Assembly: GCA_033032865.1 (NCBI GenBank)
Contig: JAWHQI010000148.1
Coordinates: 887,501-951,500, forward strand
Origin: Dactylorhiza incarnata
Taxonomy: Eukaryota; Streptophyta; Magnoliopsida; Asparagales; Orchidaceae
Direction of reading: 5' to 3'
DNA length: 64,000 nucleotides
Within the stretch, counting starts at the first letter, position 1. Each line of letters begins with the position of its first letter. Both the position numbers and the translations under genes were made by a program. Below the pieces are notes generated by a model. It saw nothing but the letters and a program-made list of their open reading frames with translations, was not told the origin of the DNA and searched no databases. This document shows positions 1-46,939 of this stretch, one piece after another.

Positions 1-346
1 TCCGTGTTAGCAAGAGCTAACGACGGTTGTGAAGAGGTGTTTACGACCCTCACCCTTTCGCGCTAGAACACACTCCATTCCGCCTCACGAAGCACGGCAT
101 CGCGGCCGTTGCATCCATCTCACCTTGCGAAGCGGTGTTTTCGACCCGCATCTCTTTTTGTTGTTGTTAAGATTAGGAAACCCAACCAAGAACCCCCCTT
201 TTTCATGTGTGTTTTGCTTGTGTAACAAGAGTCACGCTATGCGTTTCGTTCACCCAACCTGCATTCCTCAAGAGACCGACATTCGGGGAGTCCACTCTCC
301 ACATTTATTACTTGACAGCGACCGGTGCACTTGCCGACACGCATCA
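1..346 (+). repeat. 5' LTR of element A (3' part only)
   Basis: Collinear with 5733-6078, the end of the 3' LTR. It ends in GCATCA just before the primer-binding site. It contains the hairpin GTTAGC/GCTAAC at 6-21 and the conserved word CGACCGGTGCACTTGCCG about 25 bases before the LTR end. Confidence 0.92.
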
Positions 347-352
347 AGTTTT

Positions 353-370
353 TGGCGCCGTTGCCGGGGA
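353..370 (+). other. Primer-binding site, tRNA-Asp type (element A)
   Basis: TGGCGCCGTTGCCGGGGA is the exact complement of the 3' end of plant tRNA-Asp(GUC) including CCA. It starts 7 bases after the LTR end. This primer is typical of Athila and several other plant gypsy-type elements. Confidence 0.92.
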
Positions 371-461
371 ATGCAGGCGTGTTTCGTCTTGTGTTGTGAC
401 TTTCGTTATACGAGCAGTTGTTTTTGATTTTCTTTGTTTTTCTTTTTGTTTGTGACAGTGC

Positions 462-2791
462 ATGCAGAGACAAGCCGCAGGGGAGCTAGTACCCTTCGAT
501 CCTGAGATTGAACGGACTTCTCGCGCACGAAGGCGCGCGGCTGCCGTACAAGCGGCAATGGGTGATCAGGTAGACCCAAATGATGGTGACGCAAGAGCGC
601 CCGGCGTGGGGCAACATCTGCCTGGAGATGAGCAGGAGGCGGCGAGGCCTCGACCTCGCACGATGAGAGATTACACCACTCCAACTGCTGGGAGCGTGTA
701 TCCGGGGTTTGGGCCCAATATTATGAATAATCAGTTTGAGATCAAGCCAGCGATCTTAAACATCATCCGGAACAACGCTCAGTTCTCGGGGTTGGCCAGC
801 GAAGATCCGCATCTGCATCTGGCGGAGTTTTCTGATATTTGCGGAACCTTCCGCTACGTGGGGATTGCTGACGACACGGTCAAGCTTAGACTGTTTCCCT
901 TTTCACTCCGCGATAAAGCAAAGGTGTGGCTCCACTCCATTCCGCCTGGGACTGCTGCAACTTGGGAAGCCCTCGCATCCAAGTTCCTTGCTAAATTCCA
1001 TCCTGTGGATAAGATTGTAAGCTTGCGGCGGGAGATCGCCACATTTCGCCAACTTGACCAAGAGACCCTTGCTGAAGCTTGGGAGCGCCTCAACGATCTC
1101 CTTCGCCGTTGCCCTGGCCACGAGCTCCAACCATGGAATGTCGTTAAATTGTTCTACTTCGCGATCGAGCCCAACTACAGGGCAATGATCGATGCTGCGG
1201 TGGGTGGCACCTTGATGAACCACACCCCTGAGGAAGCCCTTCGAATTCTGCGCGACACTGCCTCCCACAGTACATTCTGGACTGCAGGGAGAAATGCTCC
1301 AAGAAGCGGCCGAGGTCTTTTCATGGTCGACTCTCTCCCCTCTCCATCCGCGACTGCTGCTGTCATTACCTGCGAGAGATGTGGAGGCGGAGGCCACCAC
1401 GCGTATGAGTGTTCGGGGAACAACGTGGCAGGTGACTTCGCACACTTGAACTTGAACGAATCTGTTAATTATGTAGGAAATCAGCCTAGGGGGGCGCCTT
1501 TCAATAATGCTTATAATCCGGGAGCGAGAAGTCACCCGAACTTCTCGTGGAATCCAAACACACCTGGCCAACGATGGGCACCGGGGCAGCATCAAAACGA
1601 TGCTTACGCCTCCGGGAGCCAACCGAGGCCACCACACCCGGATTATAACCAAGGTCCCCCAATCCAAAAAAGAGTAATTTGGAGGAAATGATGGAGAAGT
1701 TCATGCAAGCGGCCAACTCAAATATGGTGAATCAAACTGCATCCATGCGTAACTTGGAAATGCAGTTGGGCCAATTGGCCCAAGTGCTAACCGAGCGGTC
1801 GCAGGGGACCCTTCCCAGCAACACTGAAAAGAACCCAATAGATCAAGGGAAGAGTCTAGGCGATGTGGTTGAGACTGATCCAAGTGAGTTGGTAATTTCT
1901 TGTTCCATCAATAAGGTTGAAACAAAAGCTTTATGCGATTCCGGTTCCTCCCGCAACATCATTGCACTGCAAGATGTTGCGAGATTACAACTTGAGATGA
2001 ACACGGAGGAAAGGAAATCGCTTGTTCTCGCTAACGGCACTATTATCCAATCTGATGGGGAAGTGAGAAATGTGGAAGTAATAGTTGAGGGGACGACTGT
2101 GGTCGCGGACTTTCAGGTGTTGGGCCCCCAGGAAAATCAATCCATTCCTATCTTGGGCGTGCCGTTCTTGAAAGAGAGCGACGCCACCCTTGACTTCGCT
2201 ACGGGGTGTGTTCTCCTACCTAACAAGGCGCTGCAGCCCACTCGCCTCGAAGCTACAACTGACACATCCACTCCTCCGCCTCTCGTTATTTCTGATGAAT
2301 TTCTAAGCTGTGCAGGAAAGATACATGATCAAGAAACAAGTGAAGGAGGAAAGGAGGAGCTCCAATCAGATGAGGAAGAAGAGGTTGACTTCCGGAAAGA
2401 GTTCGACTCCGAGAAGGAGGAAGACTGCAGTTCGGGAAACGTTGACTTGGATCTAGTTAGGGATGCTGATTATTTATCTTCTTGTGGTGAATCTTGTAAT
2501 AAACTATCTAAGCGCTCCATCTCCTGGGCCGATCCGGTGGTCACCGCGATACCGGAGGTGACGCCACCCCCCGCTAAAGTGGAGAAATATGAAAACTCTC
2601 AACGGTGGCAGTCTCCGACTGTCGCCAAACTTAAAAAGGAAAAACTTCTGCGCGATGCTCGTGCTGCCGCTCTCCGTGGCAAGATGGCGGAGGTTAGGGG
2701 AGCATTGGGTAACACCAGTGCTGGCCCTAAATCCTTCACCTCTCGCCTACGTGCTACGGGAGACGCGTATCATAAGAGCGCTTTTAGTTGA
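462..2791 (+). pseudogene. gag-protease of element A, broken by a 1-base frameshift
   Basis: The ATG at 462 opens a frame to 1691 that aligns with residues 1 to about 400 of the intact 776-residue protein of element B. The rest (frame of 1679-2791) continues in another frame. Comparison with B places a 1-base loss in the A-rich stretch near 1665-1673. Domains: retrotransposon gag domain about residues 115-255; CCHC zinc knuckle C-x2-C-x4-H-x4-C starting at residue 304; aspartic protease with an LCDSGSS active-site motif and an ILGVPFL strand in the second part; acidic Glu/Asp-rich tail. The role is capsid formation and maturation in cytoplasmic virus-like particles. There is no pol. The apparent start at 1679 is a TTG codon, so the second part is not a separate gene. 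Confidence 0.9.
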
Positions 2792-4572
2792 TTTGTGTTT
2801 CTTCTGATGTGGTGAACTGCTTCTGAATATTTCTCTTTCAATTCCTGCACTCTTTAAACACTGCTAATACAGGTATTTGGTCCAGCTTAAGGACGTTAAA
2901 TGAAAGCGCTACTGGGAGACAGCCCAGATATCCTGATTTTGTAGTTTTTTTTTATCTAACTTCTTTTAGTTTAGCTTTTGCATATTTGTTGTTTTGAGTT
3001 TTGTGCTTGCAGGTTTTGTGTTTGATGGTGCGGATGCTGCGGACAATTCTTGATCATAAACGCCGATCGTCTGGTGTGCTCAATTCTGAGCATTAGGTAA
3101 CACTTCCTCCCCTCTTTTAGCTTCAAATTTTTAGATATATTGTTTAGCTTAAGTCTGGGGGAGCGTATGTTGTCACCCACTGTGCACGAGTTGCACTGCA
3201 TACTAGAAGGTTGTTTCTTATTTATTCCAGTCATTATCATTGTTTTCATGCTTCACACACCACTACACCCACTTGAGTGCGTGCTTATCTTTTTGTCGTT
3301 GTTCCGTTTAAACTATTTTGGTCGGAATGTGAAATAGATTGTTAACGTAGGAATTATTATTTGGAGTGCGATGTTGACTCATGCAGTGTTCTAGTCACTT
3401 CGCATGCTATGGTAGAAGTTGAGTAGAACTAGATTTTCTTTATGCATCTAATTTATGTTTAGTATTTCTGCGTAAATTTAGATTTAATATACTCAAGTGG
3501 TGAATTTGTATGGAATTGACGATAACCCGGTGTTGTGTGTGTGCGATTACTAGTCGTGTGTTGCTCGAGTCGGGAGGAAGGTTTACCTTTCTCGTGGGCT
3601 AAGAACTTGCCCCAAGCGACTCTCGAAGCATGGGCGAGAGCGACTCGTCGAGTTAAACATGATGTAGGCCACCCTTTGGCTAGTTTGAGCTTTGTTATTC
3701 CATGTCCATTTCGTTCACCGTTGCAAGCCAAATTTGTGCCTACCAATCCTTTGTTCAGCTCCTCTTCATCAACCAAAACCTGAAGCCTATCCTACCCCCG
3801 CAACCAAATTGTTTTAAACTACGCTCATATTTCTCAACTTGTGTGGTGTGTGGAATCTTTGTGGTTTGAAGAGAAAATAAAGTCTATCTGCTGATTTTGA
3901 ACCAACCGGAGGATACATAAAAGAAGTAAAATCTGTTAAAAGAAAAAAGAGAGTATTTTGAAAAAAAATCCTTCCGAGCTAAAAAAAGACAATCTGTTGG
4001 TATTTGTGAAGTAGGCCGTGTGCACACCTGGTTTTCATGATGAGTCTGGGGGTGTGTCACACAAGCATTGTTTGTTGGTCTTGAGTGGTGCAGCGTTCTT
4101 TAGCTCACTTGGGTTGCGTAGCCATCGTGTTTAACTTTGAATATCATACCGTAACCTAAGCCCCGTCTTATTCCTAAAAGCCCTACTGATTTGACTTGCG
4201 AGAGTGCTAGCGCCGTGGAGAGAGTGTGACCGGGCAAGCGTATGGTTCACGACGTTGATGGATTTCAGCGGAGTTATTCCTAAGCCCCGATCTTTTGCAA
4301 CACCCGCCTCAGTATCTTGTCACTTTCACACCGGGCATGATCGTCAAATTCTTCATAATTCTCCAGCTGAGTATAACTAAATCTTTACTTACACTTTAAT
4401 ACTCATGTAAATTAGTTAGCACATTTAGAATCTCCTTCTGCTAGAATCTCTACTCGCATGCGTATGTTACTTCGCACCGTACTCCCTTGTGTAATTCTCT
4501 ATGTTAATTATCGTTTTCATACTCTGCCGGATTCGTTTGCTCGAGACGCGCAAACAATTTAGTCTGGGGGTG
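2792..4572 (+). other. Non-coding 3' region of element A
   Basis: About 1.8 kb without a credible ORF, but clearly alignable with B (45172-46939) and partly with C (about 7985-9678). It holds a CTGGG/CCCAG hairpin (2912-2927), a (G/A)TGCTCA/TGAGCAT hairpin (3076-3093) and three purine-rich AGTCTGGGGG words (about 3150-3163, 4042-4054, 4560-4570). The last of these abuts the LTR and is the polypurine tract. Confidence 0.75.
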
Positions 4573-6078
4573 TGATGAGTCCTGATCATATACACATTTA
4601 TGGACTCATCCGGGCCGTTATTTAGTCAATTCACCGCACTATAGCCTTGTTATAGCTTATATTTGATAATCCATGCTAGGTGCACTTCTAGGCCCACTTT
4701 GGTGTGATTTTATGCTTATTGTCTTTAGTAATTTTCATGCGCTGTTAAGTGCCACTTTCAGTGGCTAGATTTGTGGTTGTGCCTGGAATAGGAGTCGTGC
4801 GAGTGTTCCCGGTGCAATTCTGCACAGGAACACTGCGCACAATCGCCGGTTCTATTGCGCACGACCACTGGTCGTGTGCTACTGATCGTGTGCACTTAAC
4901 ATCTTTTTCATGAGTTCTGTTTGGTGCAGTGCGCACGACCATCAATGCCAGTGCGCACGACCACCGGTCACTGCTCGTGCGCACTTACCATTTAATTTCC
5001 GAGTTCTGTTTGCTGTTGTGCGCACGACCATCAACTCCAGTGCGCACGACCACCGGTCGTGCGCCACTGGTCGTGCGAACATTTTATTTTATAATTTCGT
5101 ATCTTGCAGGTTCCACCCAGGCCGTGCGCACGATCGCAGAATTCCAGTGCGCACGACCACTGGTCGTGCGACAATGACCGTGCGCAGTATTTATTCCAGC
5201 GCCTATTTAAACGCCTGTTGCGATTTTTAGGGCATTATCAGCCGCCGGGAGCGGAGTTCCTGTTCCGTACGCCGCCGACCTCCACCGTGGGACGCCTCCA
5301 CTTCATCTTCTACGCAAGGGGAAGCCTCCTCCACCCATTCCAAGACTTCCTCCATTGTCCGTGAGTGTTCTCCATCGTCCGCAAGCCTCCAAGCAACCAT
5401 TCTCTCATTCCGCCCGGTGAGAAGAAGAAGGAACCTGAAGTCGAAGACGACGGAGCTACGTAGGGAGATCATGACAGCTCTCTACGCCGGAAGCATAGTC
5501 CGCCCGAGTCCGGAGGTAGCCCGACAACCTACCATTCCGGCCGTGAACGGCCGCTAGTCTTCACCATCGGTTATTTCTTTCCTCTTTCCCCCATTGTACT
5601 CGTTGAATCGTGTAAACTCGAATATTATGATGATGTTTATTGAAATGAATGTTTCCTTGTTGTTCTTCATGGTTTGATTGTGATCCACTCCGTTCTCACT
5701 CACTCACTCTCATACGCACGCAAGGTGTTTGTTCTGTGTTAGCAAGAGCTAACGACGGTTGTGAAGAGGTGTTTACGACCCTCACCCTTTCGCGCTAGAA
5801 CACACTCCATTCCGCCTCACGAAGCACGGCATCGCGGCCGTTGCATCCATCTCACCTTGCGAAGCGGTGTTTTCGACCCGCATCTCTTTTTGTTGTTGTT
5901 AAGATTAGGAAACCCAACCAAGAACCCCCCTTTTTCATGTGTGTTTTGCTTGTGTAACAAGAGTCACGCTACGCGTTTCGTTCACCCAACCTGCATTCCT
6001 CAAGAGACCGACATTCGGGGAGTCCACTCTCCACATTTATTACTTGACAGCGACCGGTGCACTTGCCGACACGCATCA
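4573..6078 (+). repeat. 3' LTR of element A (1506 bp)
   Basis: Begins TGATGAGTCC right after the polypurine tract and ends GCATCA. The first 38 bases contain the inverted repeat GATGAGTCC / GGACTCATC (4574-4582, 4602-4610). From about 4797 to 5190 there is an array of GTGCGCACGACC words and their complements forming short palindromes, for example 10-bp arms at 5042-5051 and 5055-5064. A TATA-like TATTTAAA lies at 5204-5211, immediately downstream of the array. The R-region hairpin GTTAGC/GCTAAC is at 5738-5753. Confidence 0.92.
5204..5211 (+). promoter_or_regulatory. TATA-like box in the 3' LTR of element A
   Basis: TATTTAAA directly downstream of the GTGCGCACGACC array. The same word is at the same place in both LTRs of B (41855-41862, 47576-47583) and in E (13003-13010, 17350-17357). 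Confidence 0.6.
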
Positions 6079-12016: not shown

Positions 12017-12331
12017 TGATGAGTCGGGTTGGCCCGAACTCTCCTTGCTCCCTCCTTGAGCGAGTGCGGCTAAAGCAACTAGGTCATATCGAACTCGCCG
12101 AGGGCGATTTCTCATGAGGCGAGCTCGCCCGAGGCCAAGTCAAACTCTCCTCGTCCTGGGCAAGAAGGAGTTTTGTCGCCGGGATGGGTTGTTCACATCG
12201 TCTAGAAAAACCACACTCATATCGTCGAGAATAGAAATCATGTCATCGAGACGAGGTCATGTCGTCAGGACAAGGCTATGCCGTTGAGAAGGGAATGGGT
12301 GGCGTACTCGCCTCACCCTACCCTAGGCGAG
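12017..12331 (+). mobile_element. Element F, left piece (LTR-like start)
   Basis: Starts TGATGAGTCGGG and is rich in GCGAG/CTCGCC words that continue after 18326, showing that E is inserted inside one element. An imperfect inverted repeat (GAGTCGGG / CCCGAACTC) is at the very start, like the terminal inverted repeats of A, B, C, E and H. The LTR end and primer site are not recognisable. Confidence 0.5.
12327..12331 (+). repeat. Target-site duplication of element E, left (GCGAG)
   Basis: GCGAG precedes the 5' LTR and is repeated at 18321-18325 directly after the 3' LTR. Confidence 0.93.
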
Positions 12332-13973
12332 TGATGAGTACTTTTTGTACTCATCTTTTAGTATTATTTTAATATAGTTTTAAATTGAATTTATATAAAT
12401 TACATGTATTTTCTTATTTAATCTGTTCCTTTTTAATTTCATCAACTAATTTAAGCTTATTTTATGTTTTGCAGGTTTTCTGGGCACTTTGAGTACAAAT
12501 GTCAAGTACACGCCCAAGGTCACGGCGTCACCAAGGGCGTGTCAGCCTAAGATGTGTTCCAGACCTGCTGCCGCCACTTCGGGCCCATTCCGTGAAGATT
12601 CGCTAAGTACACGCCCCAGGTCACGGGCGTGACAAAGGGCGTGACATCCAAGTCACGGCCGGGACCACGCCACCAGCATCCATATCGAGCCGCCACATCA
12701 TCCAAGTCACGGCCGGGACCACGCCACCAGCATCCATATCGAGCGTGACAAAGGGCGTGACCGAGGGCGTGACCTCCAGTCACGGGCGTGACTCGCCCCG
12801 AACTTCCGCCAGAGTTTCCCGCCAGCAGCACTATTTCAAGATTACACGCCCCAGGTCACAACGGGCGCGACCTAGGGCGTGACGCGTCCGAAATGCCTGC
12901 ATTGAAGCCAGAACGCGCCCTCTCCGCACCAGCATCGATCACGCTCCTTACACGCCCTTGGTCACGGGCGTGACCAAGGGCGTGTAACATCAAATTTCTG
13001 CCTATTTAAAGGGAGCTTCTCCAGATCTTCAAGGACGAATTATTAGGATTAGAATTTCATTTTCTTGTACTATTTTCATGTTTCTAGTAGTTCTTATGCT
13101 CCTCCTTTATTTCTTATGATGGTAGCTATTTCAATTCAAAGCTTGTAGTTTCTCTTGTAATCTCAATTTTATGTATTCTTCTTTTTACAATTGACACTAA
13201 TAAAATCGTAATTTTTAGTCTCTAATTTCCCCGCTCTTTTCGCTATGTTTTCTTCCTCCTCTTCTTATGATTTCTCCGTGATCATGAGCAACTAATCACT
13301 TTTGTGCTCGGCTTAGATGATCCAAGGATGATGCAATCTCTTTTTGTGCTTTAGAATTCTGTTCTTAGTGTTAAAACGCTTACGATTTACCGTGGCCAAC
13401 TCGTTCTAGTAACGGTTTTCGTCTTTTGACGGCCGAGAGGCCCTTAAGACGGATCGGTCATTGGTAAAGAGAGTCGAACGTACCCCTCGAGAGAGGACAT
13501 ACGTAACTCTTCCGGACGGGATTAACATCGCAGTGAGGTCCTTCTCTTAAAGCAAGTCTTAAGCCACTTGATTATAGAACGAGAGTTCGGTCGTGTGCAA
13601 CTTAAGCTTAGTTGAGCCAACCCTCGAGAGAGGAGCACTCATGCTTTTGGATCCTCCGCGGTCAAGGCCACTCTAACACGAGATCGATTTCTACTACACA
13701 TTTCTTTTGCTTAGTCTAAGGTGATTCGAAAGCCGTGCGCTAGTTTTTATTAATTAGTAAAATTAAATAACATAAACCCAACCTTATTCTTCTATCGGTA
13801 AAATAATAAACATTCACTCGAAGTAGAAGTACTTAACATGACCCGAGTCTAATACGACCATGATCTTGCGAGATCCCATACTTCACTCGATACGGTACAC
13901 TTGCCGTTATCGTTTGTAGTTATAATTTTGCACGTCAAGTATTTTTATAACTGCGACGCATTTTTATGCATCA
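12332..13973 (+). repeat. 5' LTR of element E (1642 bp)
   Basis: TGATGAGTAC...ATGCATCA. Terminal inverted repeat GATGAGTA (12333-12340) / TACTCATC (12348-12355) with loop CTTTTTG. Palindromic ACACGCCC..GGGCGTGT units from about 12500 to 12987, ending in a perfect one at 12948-12987. TATTTAAA at 13003-13010. It is 26 bp longer than the 3' LTR because a stretch of about 45 bp (CAAGTCACGGCCGGGACCAC...) is duplicated at about 12647-12742 in place of one palindrome kept in the 3' LTR. Confidence 0.93.
12948..12987 (+). repeat. Perfect 40-bp palindrome in the 5' LTR of E
   Basis: Arms TTACACGCCCTTGGTCACG and CGTGACCAAGGGCGTGTAA (19 bp each) separated by GG. It ends 15 bp upstream of the TATA-like box. 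The identical unit is at 17295-17334 in the 3' LTR. Confidence 0.9.
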
Positions 13974-13979
13974 AGTTTT

Positions 13980-13997
13980 TGGCGCCGTTGCCGGGGA
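13980..13997 (+). other. Primer-binding site, tRNA-Asp type (element E)
   Basis: Exact TGGCGCCGTTGCCGGGGA, 6 bases after the LTR end. Confidence 0.92.
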
Positions 13998-14138
13998 TAT
14001 TTGTTGATATTTTGAAAAGAGTGAATTTTATTAATTTTATCATTTTTTTTATTTATTAAAATATATAAATTTTTTTTTTCTTATTTTTTATTTCAATTCC
14101 ATTCATTTAAAATCCGTTTGTTTTTCAAAAAAAAAAAT

Positions 14139-15319
14139 ATGTTTTGGCTATCCGGCACGCTTGATAATGCTAATAATGTCTTAGAACTTTCTGCTTCTAT
14201 TAACGCGCTTCAAGATAAAATCAATGATTTAGAAGCCGCGGTTAGGATAAATAATGTTATTAGGGAATATTCTTCGCAAAATTCTCAAAATTTTAATAAA
14301 GAAAATAGTTTTCATAACAATTATCAAAATAATTTTTACTATGAAAGTAATTTTTGTGAAAATAATTTTTCAAATTTCTACGAGAATAATTTTCCTAACG
14401 CTAATAATTCTAATTTCCAAAATTCTCAAAATTTTAATAATGAAAATAATTTTTATTCTAATTATGGAAATAATTTTTCTCAAAATAATTTCTATGATTC
14501 TTATGAAAATATTTTTCAAACTCTTATGAGAATTCTAGCTATAATTTAAATTCTCAAAATTTTTCTTATGAAAATATTTTTAATTTTAATAAAGGTAATT
14601 CTCATGAATCTTATGAAAATAATTTTCATGATTTTTATTCTAATAATTTTCATGAGGAAAATAATTATTATAAGAAAAATACTTTTTATAATCCAGATAA
14701 CGCTGGTGATTCTTTTTCACTCACCGACTTAGATTATTCATGGTGGGCAGGCCACCCGGATAGTCTTCGCGGCAATGAAGAAAATTCATCTCCTAAAAAT
14801 TTTGTTTCCCTAATTTCTCCTCCCTCCCAGATTTTAGAAAATTCGTTAAGTCAAGATTTTTCGCATTTTCATGATAATTCGCTAACGCCACCTATTTTTG
14901 AAAATGAAATAAATGAAAATGATGATTCTACGCGTTTTGACATAACGATTATTTTAGGGGAGAAAACCTTTATTTTAAACGAGCAATCGGATTTTAATCT
15001 TTTTCTTTCAAAAGTGACTCCTCGTGAAATTGTTTCTGACCCCTTTGCCTTTGATTCTTCAATTCCTAATGATTTTCATGTAGAGGATGAGCCGTCGCAA
15101 CTAAACGTCATAGTGGACACATTTGCCGCTCATCTACAAAAATTCAAATCACCTCAGGTATGGATAGGTGATTCGAATTTACACTCTCAACCTAAAAGCA
15201 ACAAGGAGAATCAAATAGCAAGTGGAGGAGTCGCCGGGCAACGGATCACATCCAAATTCCCGCAACGCATATTCAGGGAGTTGCCCGTGCACCTTAAATT
15301 CTATTTTCCTTTTAGCTAA
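14139..15319 (+). pseudogene. Asn/Phe-rich protein of element E, unknown family, one frameshift
   Basis: The ATG at 14139 (MFWLSGTLDN) opens a short predicted coiled-coil segment ('INALQDKINDLEAAVRINNVI'), then a long low-complexity tract built from NNF, SYEN, NFYE and FYSN-like words. Near 14515-14525 the frame shifts by one base and the same composition continues in the second frame to about 14700. This passes into a more ordinary acidic C-terminal part that includes 'DYSWWAGHPDS' and 'REIVSDPFAFDSS' and stops at 15319. Total about 390 codons. It occupies the gag position, 142 bases after the PBS, but shows no gag domain, zinc knuckle or protease motif. The Asn/Phe/Tyr/Ser tract resembles prion-like, phase-separating segments; a capsid-like or RNA-binding role is only a guess. 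A/T-rich codon use differs from the GC-rich gag of A and B. Confidence 0.6.
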
Positions 15320-16704
15320 CACTAACCGTCTAGCTTAAAGACGGGAAAAACAAAGCGCTCTTGGGAGGCACCCCTTGCTCATCTTTAATTTCTTATATTC
15401 TTCTTTTACAAGTTTTTCTTTCAAGTATTCTTCATACTTAGTTTTAAACATTGGGGACAATGTTTAATTTTAAGTATGGGGGTGTAGCTTTGCATTCCCT
15501 GTATTTTTATTTGATAAAAAAAAATTATAAAAATTATAAAAATGTAATTTCTTAGAAAGGGCGCTTTGGGCTTGAATTCCCATCACAGCTCCTAGTACCT
15601 TGCGAACCCTTCACCGGGTAGCCCTTGGGAAGTCCAAGAAATAAAAAAAATAATAATAATAAATACGCCTAGCCTTGTTGTTTTTAATTTAGTTTGAGGT
15701 ACGATTATAAGTATTCCTACATTTTTAATTTAGCTAAATATTTTATTTGATCAGAATTTGTTAAAACTAAATTTGAAGTAATTTAGTTTTAAGAAACATT
15801 TTATGTTTTTAATTCAATTAGAGAATTTATTTAACACTATTTCTCCGTTTAATTTTAAATAGCTTCATTTTATGGCAAATTGGCTAAACATATCTAGATT
15901 TCTATTATATTCTCTTTTAACTTTAAGAACTTAGGAAATTTCATTCCACTAAAAAAAATTTTGCTCTCAAAATAATTTAATTTATAAACTAGAAGTATTT
16001 CTTCCCCCTCACCCTTTGTTGGCAAAAAAAAAATGTAGAAAAAGATCATATGTCATGGAAATAAGAGGATAAAATTCATTATTTCCTAAAACATATGCAC
16101 CCAAAATCATTTAAAAGATTATATGTCATGATGTAAGAGGATAAAATTCATTACATCTAAAACATATACATTTTGGGTTTTTGATTGAAGAGAATTGTTA
16201 AAAGATTATATGGCATGGAAAATAAGAGGATAAAATTCATTATTTTCCTAAACATATAAAATTTCGTATTCAAATGAGGTGAGAGGATAAAATTCATCAC
16301 CTCTATTCAAGAACACTTCATTTGCCATTTCGTTCAAACCCATCCCTAGCCAATTTCATTGTTTCTAGTCCTAAACTAAATTATTAAGAGAGCAGTATTT
16401 TAGTAGGTGTCTTTTCCTTAAGCTTCTTTTATGTTAGAGTGTCTATAATTTCAATCTAATTTTGTTTGAAAATTTCTATAATTTTGATTGCTAAATAGTT
16501 ATCTTGAGAAGTAGTTAGCTAAACAAATTTCTCTTTTTAAATTATCAACATAACTTATGACTTAATTCTTGAATTCCTAAAATTTGCCTTTGACTTATTC
16601 ATGGTTTAATAAAATTTTAGTTAATTAGAAATAATATCGATGTCTTGTAATTCTTTCCTCACTCTTTTGCTCTGGAATAGCAAAATCTCAAGTATGGGGG
16701 TGTT
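15320..16704 (+). other. Non-coding 3' region of element E
   Basis: No ORF. It contains GCGCTCTTGGGAGG (about 15355), the hairpin AAACATTG-GGGA-CAATGTTT (15446-15465) followed by an internal purine word TAAGTATGGGGGTG (about 15471-15484), the four constant-loop stem-loops (16047-16303), and the terminal purine tract CAAGTATGGGGGTG (about 16690-16703). Confidence 0.75.
16047..16303 (+). repeat. Four stem-loops with an identical 14-nt loop and different stems
   Basis: The loop GAGGATAAAATTCA occurs at 16065-16078, 16137-16150, 16226-16239 and 16283-16296. The flanking arms are perfectly complementary but differ between copies: GGAAATAA/TTATTTCC, GATGTAA/TTACATC, GGAAAATAA/TTATTTTCC, GAGGTGA/TCACCTC. 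The first three are enclosed by an outer 6-bp helix: CATATG/CATATG, TATATG/CATATA, TATATG/CATATA. Confidence 0.9.
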
Positions 16705-18320
16705 TGATGAGTACTTTTTGTACTCATCTTTTAGTATTATTTTAATATAGTTTTAAATTGAATTTATATAAATTATATGTATTTTCTTATTTAATCTGTT
16801 CCTTTTTAATTTCTTCAACTAATTTAAGCTTATTTTATGTTTTGCAGGTTTTCTGGGCACTTTGAGTAAAAATGTCAAGTACACGCCCAAGGTCACGGCG
16901 TGACCAAGGGCGTGTCAGCCTAAGATGTGTTCCAGACCTGCTGCCGCCACTTCGGGCCCATTCCGTGAAGATTCGCCAAGTACACGCCCCAGGTCACGGG
17001 CGTGACAAAGGGCGTGACATCCAAGTCACGGCCGGGACCACGCCACCAGCATCCAGATCGAGCCGCCATGTCATTTAAAGTTACACGCCCTCGGTCACGG
17101 GCGTGACCGAGGGTGTGACCTCCAGTCACGGGCGTGACTCGCCCCGAACTTCTTCCCGCCAGAGTTTCCCGCCAGCAGCACTATTTCAAGATTACACGCC
17201 CCAGGTCACGGGCGTGACCTTGGGCGTGACGCGTCCGAAACGCCTGCATTGAAGCCAGAACGCGCCCTCTCCGCACCAGCATCGATCACGCTCCTTACAC
17301 GCCCTTGGTCACGGGCGTGACCAAGGGCGTGTAACATCAAATTTCTGCCTATTTAAATGGAGCTTCTCCAGATCTTCAAGGACGAATTATTATGATTAGA
17401 ATTTCATTTTCTTGTACTATTTTCATGTTTCTAGTAGTTCTTATGCTCCTCCTTTATTTCTTATGATGGTAGCTATTTCAATTCAAAGCTTGTAGTTTCT
17501 CTTGTAATCTCAATTTTATGCATTCTTCTTTTTACAATTGACACTAATAAAATCGTAATTTTTAGTCTCTAATTTCCCCGCTCTTTTCGCTATGTTTTCT
17601 TCCTCCTCTTCTTATGATTCCTCCGTGATCATGAGCAACTAATCACTTTTGTGCTCGGCTTAGATGATCCAAGGATGATGCAATATCTTTTTGTGTTTTA
17701 GAATTCTATTCTTAGTGTTAAAACGCTTACGATTTACCGTGGCCAACTCGTTCTAGTAACGATTTTCGTCTTTTGACGGCCGAGAGGCCCTTAAGACGGA
17801 TCAGTCATTGGTAAAGAGAGTCGAACGTACCCCTCGAGAGAGGACATACGTAACTCTTCCGGACGGGATTAACATCGCAGTGAGGTCATTCTCTTAAAGC
17901 AAGTCTTAAGCCACTTGATTATAGAACGAGAGTTCGGTCGTGTGCAACTTAAGCTTAGTTGAGCCAACCCTCGAGAGAGGAGCACTCATGCTTTTGGAAC
18001 CTCCGCGGTCAAGGCCACTCTAACACGAGATCGATTTCTACTACACGTTTCTTTTGCTTAGTCTAAGGTGATTCGAAAGCCGTGCGCTAGTTTTTATTAA
18101 TTAGTAAAATTAAATTACATAAACCCAACCTTATTCTTCTATCGGTAAAATAATAAACATTCACTCGAAGTAGAAGTACTTAACATGACCCGAGTCTAAT
18201 ACGACCTTGATCTTGCGAGATCCTATACTTCACTCAATACGGTACACTTGCCGTTATCGTTTGTAGTTATAATTTTGCACGTCAAGTATTTTTATAACTG
18301 CGACGCATTTTTATGCATCA
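16705..18320 (+). repeat. 3' LTR of element E (1616 bp)
   Basis: Same ends as the 5' LTR. It holds five palindromic units at about 16880, 16979, 17082, 17192 and 17295, spaced 100-110 bp; the last is perfect. TATTTAAA at 17350-17357. It is flanked by GCGAG at 18321-18325. Confidence 0.93.
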
Positions 18321-20166
18321 GCGAGTCAGATCGCTATTTGGTCTACTCGCCGAATACGGGTTGTACACAATCCCCGCTCTTTGCGAGCTCGTCAGAGGTA
18401 GGAAAGAAGAGGCCAACCCCTATTTGGCGAGACCACGCTCTTGCTGGGCCTTCCTTTATAATTAGAGTGGGGGTATGTCTTTGACCATTCACGCTGAGAT
18501 GGATTTTAGAGGAGGTTCTTCTGTGTCCGCCAACCGAGTGCTTGCTGGCGATGAGCCTGAGGTGGTCACCATTCTTGACCTCATTGGCGATTTCCTGCCC
18601 CCTGCCTTCCTAGCTCCACGAGGAAGAAGAAGCACAAGAGAAAGAGGGCCGATCCTACTCCGCGCGAGAAGTCCTTTACAGATCCCAAGTCCACTGCAAG
18701 ATGCGGGACTTCACCTAAGAGGTTAGCCACCTCGCCTATTAACGAAGAGCCCAACGCTGACTTGCCTCTTCGATAAGGTGAGGGCGAGATCGAGACTACG
18801 ACCAGAGGGGTCGGGGATGCTGGACAGCCTCCAGATGTCATGGGTGCTCTGCCGCTCGCTCCTATTCGCCTCGCCGTGGTACCAGGTAAGGATATAACCT
18901 TCTCGCCTACCTAAAATGAGCCAAGCTTGACTCCTTGCTTTCTGTAGTGCCCTATAGATGTCAGGTGCGGCCGAACAACTTACCGAGGTATGGTCGAGAG
19001 GCCTAGCCACTACGTCTTCTTTGGTCCTAGGGCAAGTAGGTTCGACTCTGGCCCCCTCTCATAAATGTCTCAGCATTTGTCGACTCGCCCCACTTCTGGA
19101 GGAAAGTTTTTGGTGATGGGTCTCCTTCTTGGGGGGGATAGGCGTGATTCTACTCCTACCCGCCTCTACTGAAGGACTTCAGGCCGATCCACCTCGGATT
19201 CAGGATGGTGGTCTCGCTCCTACAAGTACTCACCCCGCTCATCCCACTAACATGTATCTCTCATTTTTTCTTACTGTCAGACTTCTCATCCAGATAGCCA
19301 TGCATCCTCCTCCCGTCACTCGCCGCCCACAGACTCGCTCCTGGGATTTCCGCCGCCTGCGGCATCCACGCCCTTGAGGGAGCTACTCGCAGATCCTCCT
19401 GGCTTCAAAGAGGGGCCGTGGGCTTGCCTCATTGCCGTCCTCCAATCCCACGGGTCCTTCATGTTGGCTATGCTGCCCACCGAGGTGAATCAGCGATTGG
19501 TTGATCTCAGAGATTGCCTCACGGAAGTGGATGAATTTCAACTACAACAAAAGGGCGAGGAAGGCCTATACGCCTAGGTGGCTGATCTGGAAATGAGGCT
19601 ATATGATATGGAGACTCTCCAACAAGCCACTGAGGATGATCTCCATAGGTTTGCGCAGGTGGAGGGTACTATGAGCGAGGCCTCCCTATTAGAGGAGCAC
19701 ATCTGGCAAGGCGAGGACCATATAAGACAGAGCGAGGAGATCTTGGAGAGGGCTCGCGAAGACCTGCGAGCGGCCCACGACATCACTTGGAGGACTCACC
19801 ATCCCCACTACACACGTCGCCGAGGTCGCGGTCCGGTGCGCTGCAGTTAAATTCCCTATATCGTTCTCGCCTTTTAATTTTTTTGATGCCTGGTATGATG
19901 TTGTACTCACGACCCTTCGTGTCTTTTTAATGTGAAGGCAATATTTTTATACTTGTTTCTTTTGTACTCTTTCTATGCGCTTATGGAAATCCGATTTTTG
20001 TACTCGTGTTATGCGCTTCTTTTAATTATCTGGTCTTTTATTTTTGCTTGCGCATTGTTAGGCCGGTTACTCGCTTTAGCGTACTCGCAACACGACCAGT
20101 CTACTCGCGCACGATAGGATTTGGGGCCGAGGGATATAAATAGAGGTTCTCCGAGAGTGCGGGGGT

Positions 20167-41218: not shown

Positions 41219-42728
41219 TGATGAGTCCTGATCATATATACATTTATGGACTCATCCGGGCCGTTATTTTGTCAATATCACGCACTTTAGCCTTATTATA
41301 GTCTATATTTGATAACCCATGTTAGGTGCACATTCAGGCCCACTTTGGTGTGTTTTCGTGTGTATTATCTTTAGTAGTAGTCATATGTTGTTAAGTGCCA
41401 CTTTCAGTGGCTAGATCTGTGTTTGTGCTGGAATAGGAGGCGTACAAGTGTTTCCGGTGCAATTCTGCACAGGAACACTGCGCACGATCACTTGTTCTAG
41501 TGCGCACGACCACCGGTCGTGCGCCACTAATCGTGCGCACTTAACCCTTTTTCGTGAGTTCTGTCTGGTGCAGTGCGCACGACCATCAACTCCAGTGCGC
41601 ACGACCATCGGTCGTGCGCCATTGCTCGTGCGCATTGACCATTAAATTTCTGAGTTCTGTTTGCTGTAGTGCGCACGACCATCAACTCCAGTGCGCACGA
41701 CCACCGGTCGTGCGCCACTGGTCGTGCGAACATTGTATTTTATAATTTCGTCTCTTGCAGGTTCTGTCCAGGCAGTGCGCACGATCGCAGAATTCCAGTG
41801 CGCACGACCACTGGTCGTGCGACAATGATCGTGCGCAGTATTCAATCCAGCGCCTATTTAAACGCCTGTTGCGATTTTAGGGCGGATCGATCATTCCGGG
41901 AGCGAGGTTCCTGTTCCGTACGCCGCCGACCACCGCCCTGGAACGCCCCTACTTCATCTTCCACGCAAGGGGAAGCCTCCTCCATCCATTCCAAGCCTTC
42001 CTCCATCGTCCGTGAGTGTTCTCCATCGTCCGCAAGCCTCCAAGCAACCATTTTCGCTTTCCGCCCGGTGAGAAGAAGAAGAGACCTTGAGTCGAAGACG
42101 ACGGAGCACGTAGGGAGATTGTGACAGCTCTCTACGCCGGAAGCATTGTCCGTCCGAGTCCGGAGGTAGCCCGACAACCTACCATTCCGGCCGTGAACGG
42201 CCGCTAATCTTCACCGCCGGTTATTTCTTTCTTCTTTCCCTTCATTGCACTCTTTGAACCATGTACTAGATGAATATTGTGATATTTACTTTGATGAAAA
42301 TGAATATTTCTTTGTTTTTCTCCATGGTTTGCTCATGATTCATTCCGTTCTCACTCACTCACTCGCACACGCACGCAAGGTGTTTGCTCCGTGTTAGCAA
42401 GAGCTAACGACGGTTGTGAAGAGGTGTTTGCGACCCTCACCCTTTCGCACTTGAGTTCACTTCATCCGCCTCACGAAGCACGGCATCGTAGCCGTTGCAT
42501 CCACCTCACTTTGCGAAGCGGTGTTCTCGACCCGCATCTCTGTTGTTGTTGTTAAAATTAGGAAAACCAACCAAAAACCCCTCTTTGTGTTTGTGAAACG
42601 CTTGTGTAACAATAATCACTGCGCGATTCGTTCACCCATCCTGCATTCCTCAAGAGACCGACATCCGGGGAATTTATTCTCCACAATTATTACTTGACAG
42701 CGACCGGTGCACTTGCCGACGCGCATCA
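41219..42728 (+). repeat. 5' LTR of element B (1510 bp)
   Basis: Terminal inverted repeat GATGAGTCC (41220-41228) / GGACTCATC (41248-41256). Palindrome array of GTGCGCACGACC words about 41455-41840. TATTTAAA 41855-41862. Hairpin GTTAGC/GCTAAC 42393-42408. Ends GCGCATCA. Confidence 0.95.
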
Positions 42729-42733
42729 AGTTT

Positions 42734-42751
42734 TGGCGCCGTTGCCGGGGA
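42734..42751 (+). other. Primer-binding site, tRNA-Asp type (element B)
   Basis: Exact TGGCGCCGTTGCCGGGGA, 5 bases after the LTR end. Confidence 0.94.
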
Positions 42752-42840
42752 ATGCAGACGTGTATCGTCTTGTGTAGTGATTTTTGTTATACGAGTTGTT
42801 GTCTTTGAACTTCCTTGTTTTCTTCTGTTTCTGACAGTGT

Positions 42841-45171
42841 ATGCAGAGACAGACCGCCGGTGAACTCGCACCTTTTGACCCAGAAATCGAACGGACTGCT
42901 CGCGCGCGAAGGCGCGCTGCAGCCGTACAAGCGGCCATGGGTGATCAAGTAAACCCGAATGATGATGATGCGAGAGTGCCCAACGAGGGGCAACATCTGC
43001 CTGGTGACGAGCAGGAGGCGGCGAGGCCTCGACCCCGCACGATGAGAGACTACACCACCCCCACTGCTGGGAGTGTGTACCCGGGGTTTGGGCCCAACAT
43101 CATGAATAATCAGTTTGAGATCAAGCCAGCGATCTTAAACATTATCCGCAACAATGCTCAGTTTTCAGGGCTGGCTAGCGAAGACCCGCATCTGCATCTG
43201 GCAGAATTTTCTGATATCTGCGGAACCTTCCGCTATGCCAGGATTGCTGATGACACAGTCAAGCTGAGACTGTTCCCCTTCTCTCTCCGGGACAAGGCAA
43301 AAGTGTGGCTTCACTCCATTCTGCCCGGGACTGCTGCAACTTGGGATGCCCTTGCATCCAAGTTCCTCGCTAAATTCCATCCTGTGGACAAGATCGTGAG
43401 CTTGCGGCGGGAGATCGCCACATTTCGTCAACTGGACCAAGAGACCCTTGCTGAAGCATGGGAGCGCCTTAACGAGCTCCTTCGCCGTTGTCCTGGCCAT
43501 GAGCTCCAGCCATGGAATGTGGTCGAGTTATTCTACTTTGCAATCGAGCCCCACTACAGGGCAATGATTGATGCCGCAGCGGGTGGTACCCTGATGAACC
43601 ACACTCCGGACGAAGCCCTTCGGATTTTGCGTGACACTGCCTCCCACAGTACGTTCTGGACTGCAGGGAGAAATGCCCCGAGAAGCGGCCGAGGTCTTTT
43701 CATGGTCGACTCACTCCCCACTCCGTCTGCGCCTGCTGCTATCATTACTTGTGAAGGATGTGGAGGCGGAGGCCATCATGCTTATGAATGTTCGGGGAAC
43801 CACATGGCAGGTGATTTCGCACACTTGACCTTAAATGAATCTGTGAACTATGTAGGAAATCAACCCAAGGGGGCGCCTTACAATAACGCCTATAATCCGG
43901 GAGCGAGAAGTCATCCAAACTTCTCTTGGAATCCCAACACGCCCGGCCAACGATGGTCACCGGGGCAGCATCAAAATGATGCTTACGCCTCCGGGAGCCA
44001 ACCGAGGCCGCCGCACCCGGATTATAACCAAGCACCCCCCACCCAAAAGAAAAGTAATTTAGAAGAGATGATGGAGAAATTCCTGCTTGCAGCTAATTCA
44101 AACATGGTAAATCAAACCGCATCTATGCGAAACTTGGAGACGCAATTGGGCCAATTGGCTCAAGCGCTAACCGATCGTTCGCAGGGAACCCTTCCCAGCA
44201 ACACGGAAAAGAACCCTATTGATCAAGGGAAAAGTCTGGGAGATGCGGTAGATGCCAAACCGAGTGAGCTGGTAATCTCGTGCTCCATCAATAAGGTTGA
44301 AACCAAAGCTTTATGCGATTCCGGTTCCTCCCGCAACGTTATTGCACTGCAAGATGTTGCGAAGTTACAGCTGGAGATGAACACGGAGGAAAGGAAATCG
44401 CTGATTCTCGCTAATGGCACGATTATCCAATCTGAGGGGGAAGTAAAGAATGTGGAGGTAACGGTTGAGGGGACAACTGTAGTAGCTGATTTTCAGGTTC
44501 TGGGCCCGCGAGAAAACCAGTCCATTCCTATCTTGGGGGTGCCGTTCTTGAAAGAGAGCGGTGCTACCCTTGATTTTGCTACGGGGTGCATTTCCCTAAC
44601 CAATGTGGTGCCGCAACCTACTTGCCCTGAAGCCACAACTGAAATATTCACTCCGCCCCCTCTCGTTATTTCTGATGAATTTCTAAGCGGTGCAGGAAAG
44701 ATACATGTTCAAGAAACAGGTGAAGGAGGAATGGAAGAGTTCCAATCGGATGAGGAAGAAGAGGTCGACTTCCGGAAAGAGTTCGACTCCGAGATGGAGG
44801 AAGACGACAGTTCGGGAAACGTTGACTTGAATATAGTTAGGGATGATATTTATTTATCTCCGTGTGATGAATCATGTAATAAACTATGTAAGCGCTCCAT
44901 CTCGTGGGCCGATCCGGTAGTCACCACGATGCCGGAAGTGACGCCACCTGATTCTAAGGCAGAAAAATCTGAGAACTCTCAGCGGTGGCAGTCTCCAACT
45001 GTCACCAAACTTAAAAAGGAAAAACTTCTGCGTGACGCTCGTGCTGCTGCTCTCCGTGGCAAGGTGGCGGAGGTTAGGGGAGCATTGGGTAATACCAGTG
45101 CTGGCCCTAAAGCCTTCACCTCCCGCCTACGTGCTACGGGAGAAGCGCACCATAAGAGCGCTTTTAGTTGA
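42841..45171 (+). CDS. gag-protease polyprotein of element B (intact, 776 aa)
   Basis: Starts at the ATG at 42841, 90 bases after the PBS; A has the same start context. Residues about 1-100 are Arg/Ala-rich and basic. Residues about 115-255 form the retrotransposon gag (capsid) domain with 'DDTVKLRLFPFSLRDKAKVW' and 'LHSILPGTAATWDALASKFL'. The CCHC zinc knuckle is residues 304-317 (C-EG-C-GGGG-H-HAYE-C). A Pro/Asn-rich linker follows, then a retropepsin-like protease: LCDSGSS with Asp493 as the likely catalytic residue and ILGVPFL near residue 565. The tail (about 600-776) is Glu/Asp-rich, then basic. It would make virus-like particles and mature them, packaging the element's own RNA. No stop or frameshift and no pol, so cDNA synthesis and integration need a partner element. 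Confidence 0.94.
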   Translation: MQRQTAGELAPFDPEIERTARARRRAAAVQAAMGDQVNPNDDDARVPNEGQHLPGDEQEAARPRPRTMRDYTTPTAGSVYPGFGPNIMNNQFEIKPAILNIIRNNAQFSGLASEDPHLHLAEFSDICGTFRYARIADDTVKLRLFPFSLRDKAKVWLHSILPGTAATWDALASKFLAKFHPVDKIVSLRREIATFRQLDQETLAEAWERLNELLRRCPGHELQPWNVVELFYFAIEPHYRAMIDAAAGGTLMNHTPDEALRILRDTASHSTFWTAGRNAPRSGRGLFMVDSLPTPSAPAAIITCEGCGGGGHHAYECSGNHMAGDFAHLTLNESVNYVGNQPKGAPYNNAYNPGARSHPNFSWNPNTPGQRWSPGQHQNDAYASGSQPRPPHPDYNQAPPTQKKSNLEEMMEKFLLAANSNMVNQTASMRNLETQLGQLAQALTDRSQGTLPSNTEKNPIDQGKSLGDAVDAKPSELVISCSINKVETKALCDSGSSRNVIALQDVAKLQLEMNTEERKSLILANGTIIQSEGEVKNVEVTVEGTTVVADFQVLGPRENQSIPILGVPFLKESGATLDFATGCISLTNVVPQPTCPEATTEIFTPPPLVISDEFLSGAGKIHVQETGEGGMEEFQSDEEEEVDFRKEFDSEMEEDDSSGNVDLNIVRDDIYLSPCDESCNKLCKRSISWADPVVTTMPEVTPPDSKAEKSENSQRWQSPTVTKLKKEKLLRDARAAALRGKVAEVRGALGNTSAGPKAFTSRLRATGEAHHKSAFS

Positions 45172-46939
45172 TGTGTGTTTTATTTGCTGTGATGAACTAT
45201 TTTTGAGTATTTCTTTTTAATTCCTGCACTCTTTTTAAACACTGTTAATACAGATATTTGGTCCAGCTTAAGGACGCTAAATGAAAGCGCTACTGGGAGA
45301 CAACCCAGATTTCCGTTTTCGTATTTCTTTTTTTAGTTCAGCTTTTGTATTTGCTTTTGTTGCCTTGAGTTTGTGCTTGCAGGTTTCGTGTTCGATGGCG
45401 GATGCTGCGGACTATTCTTGATCGTAAACGCCAATCGTCTGGTATGCTCATTTCTGAGCATTGGGTAACACTTCCTCCCCTCTTTCAGCTTCAAATTTCT
45501 AGATATCGTGTTTAGCTTAAGTCTGGGGGAGCGGTTGTTATTATCCACTGTGCACGAGCTGCATTGCATACTAGAAGGTTGCTTTTTATTTTTCATTATC
45601 ATTATCATTGTTGCATTCCTTACACACCACTTTACCCACTTGAGTGCGTGCTTTTCTTTTTGTTGTTCCGTTTAAAATTAGTTTGGTTGGAATGTGAAAT
45701 AGTTTGTTAACATAGGAATTATTATTTGGAGCACGATGTCGACTCATGTAGTGTACTAGTCACGTCGCATGTTATGGTAGAATTTGAGTAGAACTAGATT
45801 TTCTTTATGCATCTAATTTATATTTAGTATTTCTGCGTAAATTTAGAGTTAGTATACTCGAATGCTGAATTTGTATGAAATTGACGATAACCCGGTATTG
45901 TGTGTGCACGATTGCTAGTCGTGTGTTGCTCGAGTCGGGAGGAAGGTTTATCTTTCTCGTGGGCTAAGAACTTGCCCCAAGCGACTCTCGAAGCATTGGT
46001 GAGAGCGACTCGTCGAGTTAAAAATGACGTAGGCCACCATTTGGCTAGTTTGAGCTTTGTTATTCCATGTCCATTTCATTCACCTTTGCGAGCCAAATTT
46101 GTGCCTACCAATCCTTTGTTCAGCTCCTCTTCCTCCACCAAAGCCTGAAGCCTATCCTACACCCGCAACCAAATTGTTTTTAACTGCGCTCATAAGTCTC
46201 AATGTGCGTGTCGTGTGGAATCATTTTGTTATGAAGGGAAAATATTGTCTATCCGCTGATTTTGAACCAACCGGAGGATACATAAAAGAAGAAAAATATG
46301 TAAAAGAGAAAAAAAAAGTAGTTTGAAAAAAAAATCCTCCCGAGCTAAAAACAGAAAATCTGTTGGAATTTGTGAAGTAGGCCGTGCGCACACCTGGTTT
46401 TCATGATAAGTCTGGGGGTGTGTCACACGAGCGTAGTTTGTGGTTTTGTGGGGTGCAGCGTTCCGATAGCTCACTTGGGTTGCGCAGCCATCGTGTTTAA
46501 CTTTGAATATCATACCATAACCTAAGCCCCGTTTTAATCCTATAAGTCCTACTGATTTGATTTGTGAGTTTGCTAGCGCCGTGGTGAGAGTGTGACCGGG
46601 CAAGCGTATGGTTCACGACGTTGATGGATTTCAGCGGAGTTATTCCTAAGCCCCGATCTTGTGCAACACCCGCCTCAGTGTCTCGTCACTTTCATACCGG
46701 GCATGATCGCCAAATTCGTCATAATTCGCCAACTGAGTATAATTAAATCTCTACTTACGCTTTAATACTTACGTAAATTAGTTAGCATAGTTAGAATCTC
46801 TTTCTACTAGAATTTCTACTCGCATGCGTATGTTACTTCGCACCGTACTCCTTTGTGTAATTCTCTATGTTAATTATTCGTTTTCACATTCCACCGGATT
46901 CGTTTGCTCGGGACGCGCAAACAGTTAAGTCTGGTGGTG
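45172..46939 (+). other. Non-coding 3' region of element B
   Basis: Alignable with A (2792-4572). Contains CTGGG/CCCAG hairpin (45293-45308), ATGCTCA-TTTC-TGAGCAT hairpin (45444-45461), purine words at 45518-45531 and 46407-46420, and the terminal tract AAGTCTGGTGGTG (about 46927-46939), which has a T inside the G-run, unlike A and the internal copies. Confidence 0.75.

Follow-up and report, generated by a model that had tools for sequence, protein, structure and literature searches.

The four stem-loops near the 3' end of one orchid retrotransposon raise the question of why a single loop should be carried on stems of different sequence, and of what such an array might do for the element. They lie in a 64,000-nucleotide stretch of Dactylorhiza incarnata DNA, referred to here as the window, within an element designated E, all of whose features given below are on the plus strand. 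In every one of the four the loop is the 14-nt sequence GAGGATAAAATTCA, and the arms are perfect but different. Hairpin 1 (H1; 16047-16097) has an 8-bp inner stem formed by GGAAATAA (16057-16064) and TTATTTCC (16079-16086), with the loop at 16065-16078 and an outer helix CATATG (16047-16052)/CATATG (16092-16097). In hairpin 2 (H2; 16120-16168) the 7-bp inner stem is GATGTAA (16130-16136)/TTACATC (16151-16157), the loop is at 16137-16150 and the outer helix is TATATG (16120-16125)/CATATA (16163-16168). Hairpin 3 (H3; 16207-16258) has the same outer letters, TATATG (16207-16212)/CATATA (16253-16258), around a 9-bp stem of GGAAAATAA (16217-16225) and TTATTTTCC (16240-16248), with the loop at 16226-16239. 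Hairpin 4 (H4) is without an outer helix and has the 7-bp stem GAGGTGA (16276-16282)/TCACCTC (16297-16303), with the loop at 16283-16296. The four copies and the perfect stems of 8, 7, 9 and 7 bp described in the initial annotation were thus all recovered. Its claim that the outer helix also covaries stands only in part: within the window it applies to the end pair alone, and among other copies that were scanned L134 (CATACG/CGTATG) is a clear compensation, but most have the same letters and a few carry one mismatch. The predicted fold shows that the 14-nt loop is not simply open, as pairing of GAG with UUC leaves one A bulged and reduces the loop to seven nucleotides, GAUAAAA.

Chance is a poor explanation of this arrangement. 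Sets of shared-loop hairpins were defined by arms of at least 7 Watson-Crick pairs, loops of 8-20 nt that are identical, and different arms, all within 400 nt. The largest set in real E has four members, and 500 dinucleotide-preserving shuffles of E gave no set of two or more, so that an equal count in shuffled sequence, named beforehand as grounds for rejecting a selected structure, did not occur. The loop word alone is less telling, with 4 matches in the window at up to 2 mismatches and 7 of 100 shuffles reaching 4. For the 281-nt hairpin region the folding energy is -64.7 kcal/mol, compared with -43.4 kcal/mol (sd 4.05) for shuffles (z -5.3), and individual z-scores are -3.7 to -6.0 for H1-H3 and -2.1 for H4.

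Element E (12332-18320; 5,989 bp) was delimited by LTR self-alignment, and its ends, TGATGAG...GCATCA, were read by eye, as was GCGAG, the 5-bp target duplication that flanks the element (12327-12331 and 18321-18325). Its 5' LTR (12332-13973) and 3' LTR (16705-18320), both placed by self-alignment, are 95.8% identical. The primer-binding site TGGCGCCGTTGCCGGGG (13980-13996), which presumably fits tRNA-Asp, is identical in L137, L140, L150, L154, L156 and L169. An orphan coding region (14139-15319) follows, in frames 14139-14546 and 14507-15319 that are shifted in this copy; no significant Pfam match and no gag or pol domain were found in it, and a search of 5.8 billion proteins gave no homologue of frame 14507-15316. 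Related frames with 38-48% identity occur at L144, L133, L153, L172 and L141. The 3' polypurine tract AAGTATGGGGGTGTT (16690-16704) directly adjoins the 3' LTR. With LTRs, a primer site, a polypurine tract and a target duplication, and no pol, E is a non-autonomous LTR retrotransposon, and its hairpins sit in the 3' non-coding region, between the end of the coding region and the polypurine tract. About 300 bp of its 3' region are 80% identical to L221, an autonomous element of a hairpin-less family; E itself is without pol, and its primer site is identical to that of its relatives.

Several other features of E and its neighbours were recorded. The orphan frame (14139-15319) is rich in Asn, Phe and Tyr and has a conserved C-terminus, GGVAGQR...ELPVHxxFxFPFS. 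The near-palindromic block TTAAACATTGGGGACAATGTTTAA, with the polypurine-like AAGTATGGGGG upstream of it (together 15444-15482), lies some 1.2 kb ahead of the true polypurine tract and is kept in autonomous and non-autonomous elements. The LTR start is a perfect hairpin with arms that differ between families, GATGAGTAC/GTACTCATC, GATGAGTCC/GGACTCATC and GATGACTA/TAGTCATC (16706-16728 and 46941-46977; L220, L221, L222); it was not seen in L182. The LTR of E (16876-17337) and that of a gag-pro element in the window (41476-41837) contain tandem units of about 100 bp, rich in G+C and strongly palindromic (ACACGCCC..GTCACGGGCGTGAC..GGGCGTGT; GTGCGCACGACC).

The hairpin extends far beyond E. The search covered one genome, the window's own (3.27 Gb in 3,184 contigs), in which the exact loop word has 20,355 copies against 13 for a reversed-letter control; allowing up to one mismatch raises these numbers to 28,087 and 1,645. 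The initial observation is therefore correct and larger than was reported: the loop word occurs over 20,000 times, and autonomous and non-autonomous elements share it. A search for the word flanked by complementary arms had been proposed. The arms were examined, with G.U allowed, at the first 100 sites listed with flanks in contig order, out of 14,017 fitting the search pattern. Six or more continuous pairs are present at 73 of them, and at 89 if one 5'-side bulge is permitted. The other 11 have fewer than six pairs even with the bulge. Unpaired arms in other copies had been put forward as evidence against the structure; such arms exist in these 11 sites, but the large majority pair, and breaks are expected for dead insertions. 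Among distinct arm pairs, an arm matches its own partner in 23 of 33 cases and a swapped partner in 364 of 1,056. By the same rule 120 listed copies of the loop word in viral contigs, used as a control for chance, gave 1 (continuous) and 4 (with bulge), none of them with six Watson-Crick pairs. Some families have a bulged fourth base in the 5' arm, which may be T, C or A with its neighbours still paired.

Neither an A before nor a T after the loop was present at 78 sites. Loops closed by C..G were considered as strong compensation and were dropped, as 16 of the 30 loci fetched for these atypical sites are one unrelated repeat, 15 of them matching the RT part of P0049, the Platanthera zijinensis protein used as Pol reference. 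The loop-word counts thus include a small background share. On some contigs the hairpins, or the 3' or coding runs of autonomous elements, recur regularly, at about 4.2-4.3 kb on C42, C111, C133 and C155 and about 9.4 kb on C399, C1110 and C2463, which suggests that whole LTR elements are arranged head to tail and share their LTRs.

If the structure has been selected, changes on one side of the stem should be matched on the other, and this was examined in an ungapped alignment that includes decayed copies and was selected for the exact loop. Of 83 sources, 26 were dropped since their flanks match no hairpin-bearing element (one of them, L206, has the left arm only); the remaining 57 yielded 104 hits, among them 44 distinct 32-mers. 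Across nine pairs, pairing holds in 80.3% of the cells against 68.5% in shuffled partners; the covariation score is 0.529 against 0.297, with none of 500 shuffles as high, and 89 cells are changed on both sides against 39.5. When the partner was slid by one to three columns, the score fell to 0.18-0.32. A double change of any kind is found in 8 of 9 pairs, an unremarkable number that 143 of 500 shuffles also reach. The selection was for the exact loop and no loop position varies in the 44 sequences, so covariation is uninformative on pairs within the loop, including an alternative GGAU/AUUC pairing. For the stems, the claim of a selected structure is supported by arms that covary in 44 distinct related hairpins.

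Trees were built from the flanks, with the hairpin excluded, because the copies are related. Simple Fitch parsimony on 18, 22 and 13 hand-chosen loci gave, for pairs 1-7, 10 double changes that keep pairing and 2 that break it; for all nine pairs the numbers are 10 paired and 4 unpaired. Single changes in pairs 1-7 left the pair in 24 cases and broke it in 20, such breaks being expected in dead copies. Double changes at the third pair were seen at six sites, four of them paired, too few to weigh.

These counts bear first on the view that the hairpins are functionless leftovers of tandem repetition in a hypervariable 3' region. Repeats of this kind are described as common in the 3' regions of related lineages (PMC11963269 and PMC7004042, in their accessible parts), and in E itself TRF finds an 89-bp period of 2.1 copies at 16112-16292. 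Stem covariation, a loop held constant across families and the occurrence of single hairpins in one of the main groups of loci all speak against this view, and the covariation counts largely refute it, leaving it very improbable.

A mutational origin is harder to set aside. In such a scheme a template switch during reverse transcription or replication copies one arm onto the other, and the loop is kept in some other way or by recent ancestry. It would fit the 266 of 308 alignment cells that are Watson-Crick, the few wobbles among the rest, and the resemblance of three of E's hairpin units to a diverged tandem repeat. An excess of G.U was sought and was absent, with 12 G.U or U.G against 11 A.C or C.A in the 44 hairpins; at the second pair genome-wide, 149 G.U against 198 A.C point in the opposite direction if anything (p 0.01). 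The mismatches consequently give no support for an RNA strand, and the lack of wobble is again what template switching would leave. The process leaves the near-constant 14-nt loop unexplained, however. Loci were mostly retrieved by an exact loop match, which inflates loop constancy, and hairpins that did not serve for retrieval are a fairer sample, although the model used to find them in 48 sources was trained on exact loops and leans towards constancy. Among 42 such hairpins, in 43 loci, the loop is exact in 25, has one change in 15 and two changes in 1, and is altered in length in 1; a variant loop, GATGATAAAATTCA, recurs in four loci. Average identity between the flanks of the loci compared is 62-72%, and between the two main locus groups no linking alignment above 90 bits was found beside the hairpin. 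The loci of the second group have single hairpins (fold z -2.1 for L163 and -3.4 for L164).

Three further observations count against template switching. Full switching of strands would invert some loops, and the loop word was seen on both strands in no fetched locus of this genome; the bulged fourth base varies while its neighbours stay paired; and the hairpin is present in derivatives without recognised genes. The fold-back alternative raised in the initial annotation could therefore explain the perfect arms but not the constant loop, and as a full account it is improbable. Template switching may nevertheless act together with selection, helping to keep the arms perfect.

The range of elements that carry the hairpin is wide. 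Two autonomous carriers were seen, with arrays (L142, L148) about 1 kb after the end of the integrase, where the continuation of the frame was recognised by eye. The stretches upstream of these arrays (L225, L223) run from RT to integrase and are 81-85% identical to residues 577-1080 of P0049; L225 has Pfam matches to RVT_1 (3.3e-27), RT_RNaseH (4.8e-35) and rve (1.6e-19), and in both the coding sequence is broken by stops or frame shifts. Of 35 candidate autonomous Pol copies scored in the genome, the best match an orchid protein at 87-92%; on this one gene of a mobile element, the host plant would tentatively be placed among the orchids. A second class codes for gag, and the stretches read contain no match to RT. 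It comprises L218 (upstream of L195), L214 (upstream of L164) and L216 (upstream of L197). L218 has the Pfam domain Retrotrans_gag, and its Gag is 50% identical to that of L214 and 27-37% identical to that of L216. L219, upstream of L196, also has a match to Gag, but on the opposite strand to the hairpin, and this match was not counted. E and its relatives with the orphan frame are another class. In the derivatives L137, L140, L150, L154 and L156 a perfect primer site precedes the first exact-loop hairpin by 1.1-1.3 kb, and neither P0049 nor the frame of E, the two sequences compared, has a match in them; the junction of polypurine tract and LTR was recognised in all of these except L137. No pol was found in L224, upstream of L154, and the L154 array belongs to a derivative without recognised genes. 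We take this hairpin-bearing group to be Athila-like Ty3/gypsy.

The hairpin is absent from another autonomous family, in three of three copies read (L220, L221, L222), and from the window's own gag-pro elements, suggesting that not every relative needs it. A possible second loop type, TTAGATGATACGGTGAAGAGAC on an A/T-rich stem, occurs in the hairpin-less autonomous family, with 72 copies; its arms hardly vary, so that it offers no covariation test. The gag-coding elements of the window without the hairpin word are at 1-6078 and 41219-48449 (with Pfam gag and aspartyl protease at 42835-45168), and gag-coding relatives of these elsewhere in the genome carry one hairpin.

Where present, the hairpins number one to four and lie near the 3' end, separated from the polypurine tract by a few hundred bases. 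Their orientation is fixed: in 23 of 23 loci with a primer site or a junction of polypurine tract and LTR, representing about 15 element copies, the loop is on the same strand as these signals. Such a bias is relevant to a role in DNA, where the hairpin would serve transcription, integration or chromatin as a cruciform or binding site, whether in single-stranded cDNA or in the double-stranded element. The complementary strand of the 281-nt region folds about equally well (z -5.0) and the mismatches are without strand bias, as a DNA feature would have it, but a double-stranded site has no need of compensated arms, and the fixed orientation would be left without a reason. A DNA-level function is improbable, and rated a little lower than mutation without selection. 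Orientation and context together point to RNA, rather than DNA, as the probable active form.

The evidence thus consists of a near-constant loop, covarying stems, a defined position and orientation, and sharing between autonomous and non-autonomous elements that extends to derivatives without recognised genes. Taken together, these features suggest that the hairpins are probably a cis-acting RNA recognition element of a Ty3/gypsy group, served in trans. A protein would meet a constant sequence, GAGGAUAAAAUUCA, at the tip of the stem, whose own letters would be free to change as long as pairing holds. Placed in the 3' non-coding part of the sense transcript, the hairpin would act in cis on a factor supplied in trans, for instance an element-encoded protein that recruits the RNA into the particle or the reverse-transcription complex. 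Retention of the hairpin in families lacking pol, gag or any recognised gene, along with its presence in autonomous elements, suggests action in cis on such a factor, and gene-poor derivatives that retain little more than LTRs, primer site, hairpin region and polypurine tract suggest a role in mobilisation. That a protein reads the loop is likewise an interpretation of the sequence pattern. Among the roles proposed at the outset, a protein-binding hairpin array appears to fit best, and a packaging role is possible. Dimerisation is less suitable. The dimer-initiation or kissing hairpins of retroviruses have a self-complementary loop of about six bases, and the longest self-complementary stretch here, as judged by eye, is AATT; loop-loop kissing is therefore unlikely.

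The identity of the reader is a separate matter. Within the recognition reading, a protein of the autonomous element that selects RNAs for particles or reverse transcription may be tentatively favoured, and a host factor for export or stability would be a somewhat weaker candidate. Among the gag-coding carriers the loop stays the same though the Gags are very different, a pattern that speaks for Pol or a host protein rather than for Gag.

That argument also serves the main rival to this reading, in which the same cis hairpin would have another reader and act in host-mediated export, like the constitutive transport element (CTE). The CTEs of simple retroviruses lie in the 3' non-coding region. 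The position of the hairpin before the 3' LTR would correspond to this, one host protein would be expected to meet the same loop despite very different Gags, and carriers both with and without recognised genes would be served alike. A retroviral precedent exists in the CTE, described in the accessible text of PMC7551171 as a cis-acting RNA structure for the export of unspliced retroviral RNA, which has one long stem with two internal loops and binds NXF1. The likeness is that of cis-acting structured RNA to candidate cis hairpins; the difference is that those of the orchid are separate and short, with the constant sequence at the apex, and that AAGACA, reported for one CTE-like loop in the same text, is absent from their loop. 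It also counts against the export reading that some relatives in the same genome are without the hairpin. RNA export of plant LTR elements has not been studied directly, according to the accessible part of PMC12786077. Host export seems rather unlikely as the sole account, although its probability overlaps with that of the recognition reading.

Other known systems resemble the array in part. The eel elements UnaL2 and UnaSINE1 share a 3' stem-loop with the loop GGAUA, a portion of which has been suggested to be read by the LINE reverse transcriptase (PMC5135761, accessible text). As in the orchid, this is a conserved-loop hairpin near the 3' end, with an unpaired stem base, that is common to autonomous and non-autonomous partners, two autonomous carriers having been seen here; the letters GGAUA also occur inside the orchid loop, probably by coincidence. 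The eel elements are, however, non-LTR elements in which the hairpin is read at the 3' end, whereas E and its kin have LTRs and carry one to four hairpins internal to the 3' LTR.

The 3' UTR tandem repeats of Tat/Ogre and Retand elements, called hypervariable in the accessible parts of PMC7004042 and PMC11963269, occupy the same site between coding region and 3' LTR and also vary in copy number. Those repeats are described there as family-specific, in contrast to a loop common to several families on arms that covary; those parts contain no mention of a constant-loop hairpin, and the words 'hairpin' and 'stem-loop' are absent from the main text of the Retand paper. By structure, E, the gag-coding elements without RT and the gene-less derivatives are of the LARD, TRIM and TR-GAG kinds, for which no report of a shared constant-loop hairpin was seen among the openly licensed papers listed.

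In the iron-responsive element and the MS2 coat-protein operator, a constant loop and a bulge on a largely free stem are bound by one protein. Their sequences differ from the one found here, and so does the side of the bulge, which is the 3' side in the orchid hairpin. Rfam covariance models over 12300-18400 gave no match up to E = 1, and the loop word appeared in no paper in a full-text literature search. The initial statement that no such array was known in plant LTR elements agrees with the openly licensed papers listed, among which no report of constant-loop hairpins in these elements was found.

How plant LTR retrotransposons choose RNA for export, packaging and copying is poorly known, and so is the way in which non-autonomous families of large genomes gain that machinery. 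In this one genome autonomous elements and what seem to be their dependants are marked by a short, countable motif that covariation supports, and the natural series of elements with pol, with gag only and without recognised genes already points to action in cis. The hairpin offers a direct bait for the putative reading protein and, through its sequence, a means of predicting the families that a given autonomous element can mobilise. A more specific proposal, possible though short of probable, is that of a shared pass-word: the protein of the autonomous element would read GAGGAUAAAAUUCA, and whole families of parasites of three kinds in unlike surroundings, those coding for gag without RT, those with the orphan frame and those without genes, would be mobilised through the same hairpin in up to four copies. 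If this is true, the hairpin would be the LTR-retrotransposon counterpart of the partnership of LINEs and SINEs through a 3' hairpin, and the hairpin-less relatives would form a different mobilisation group.
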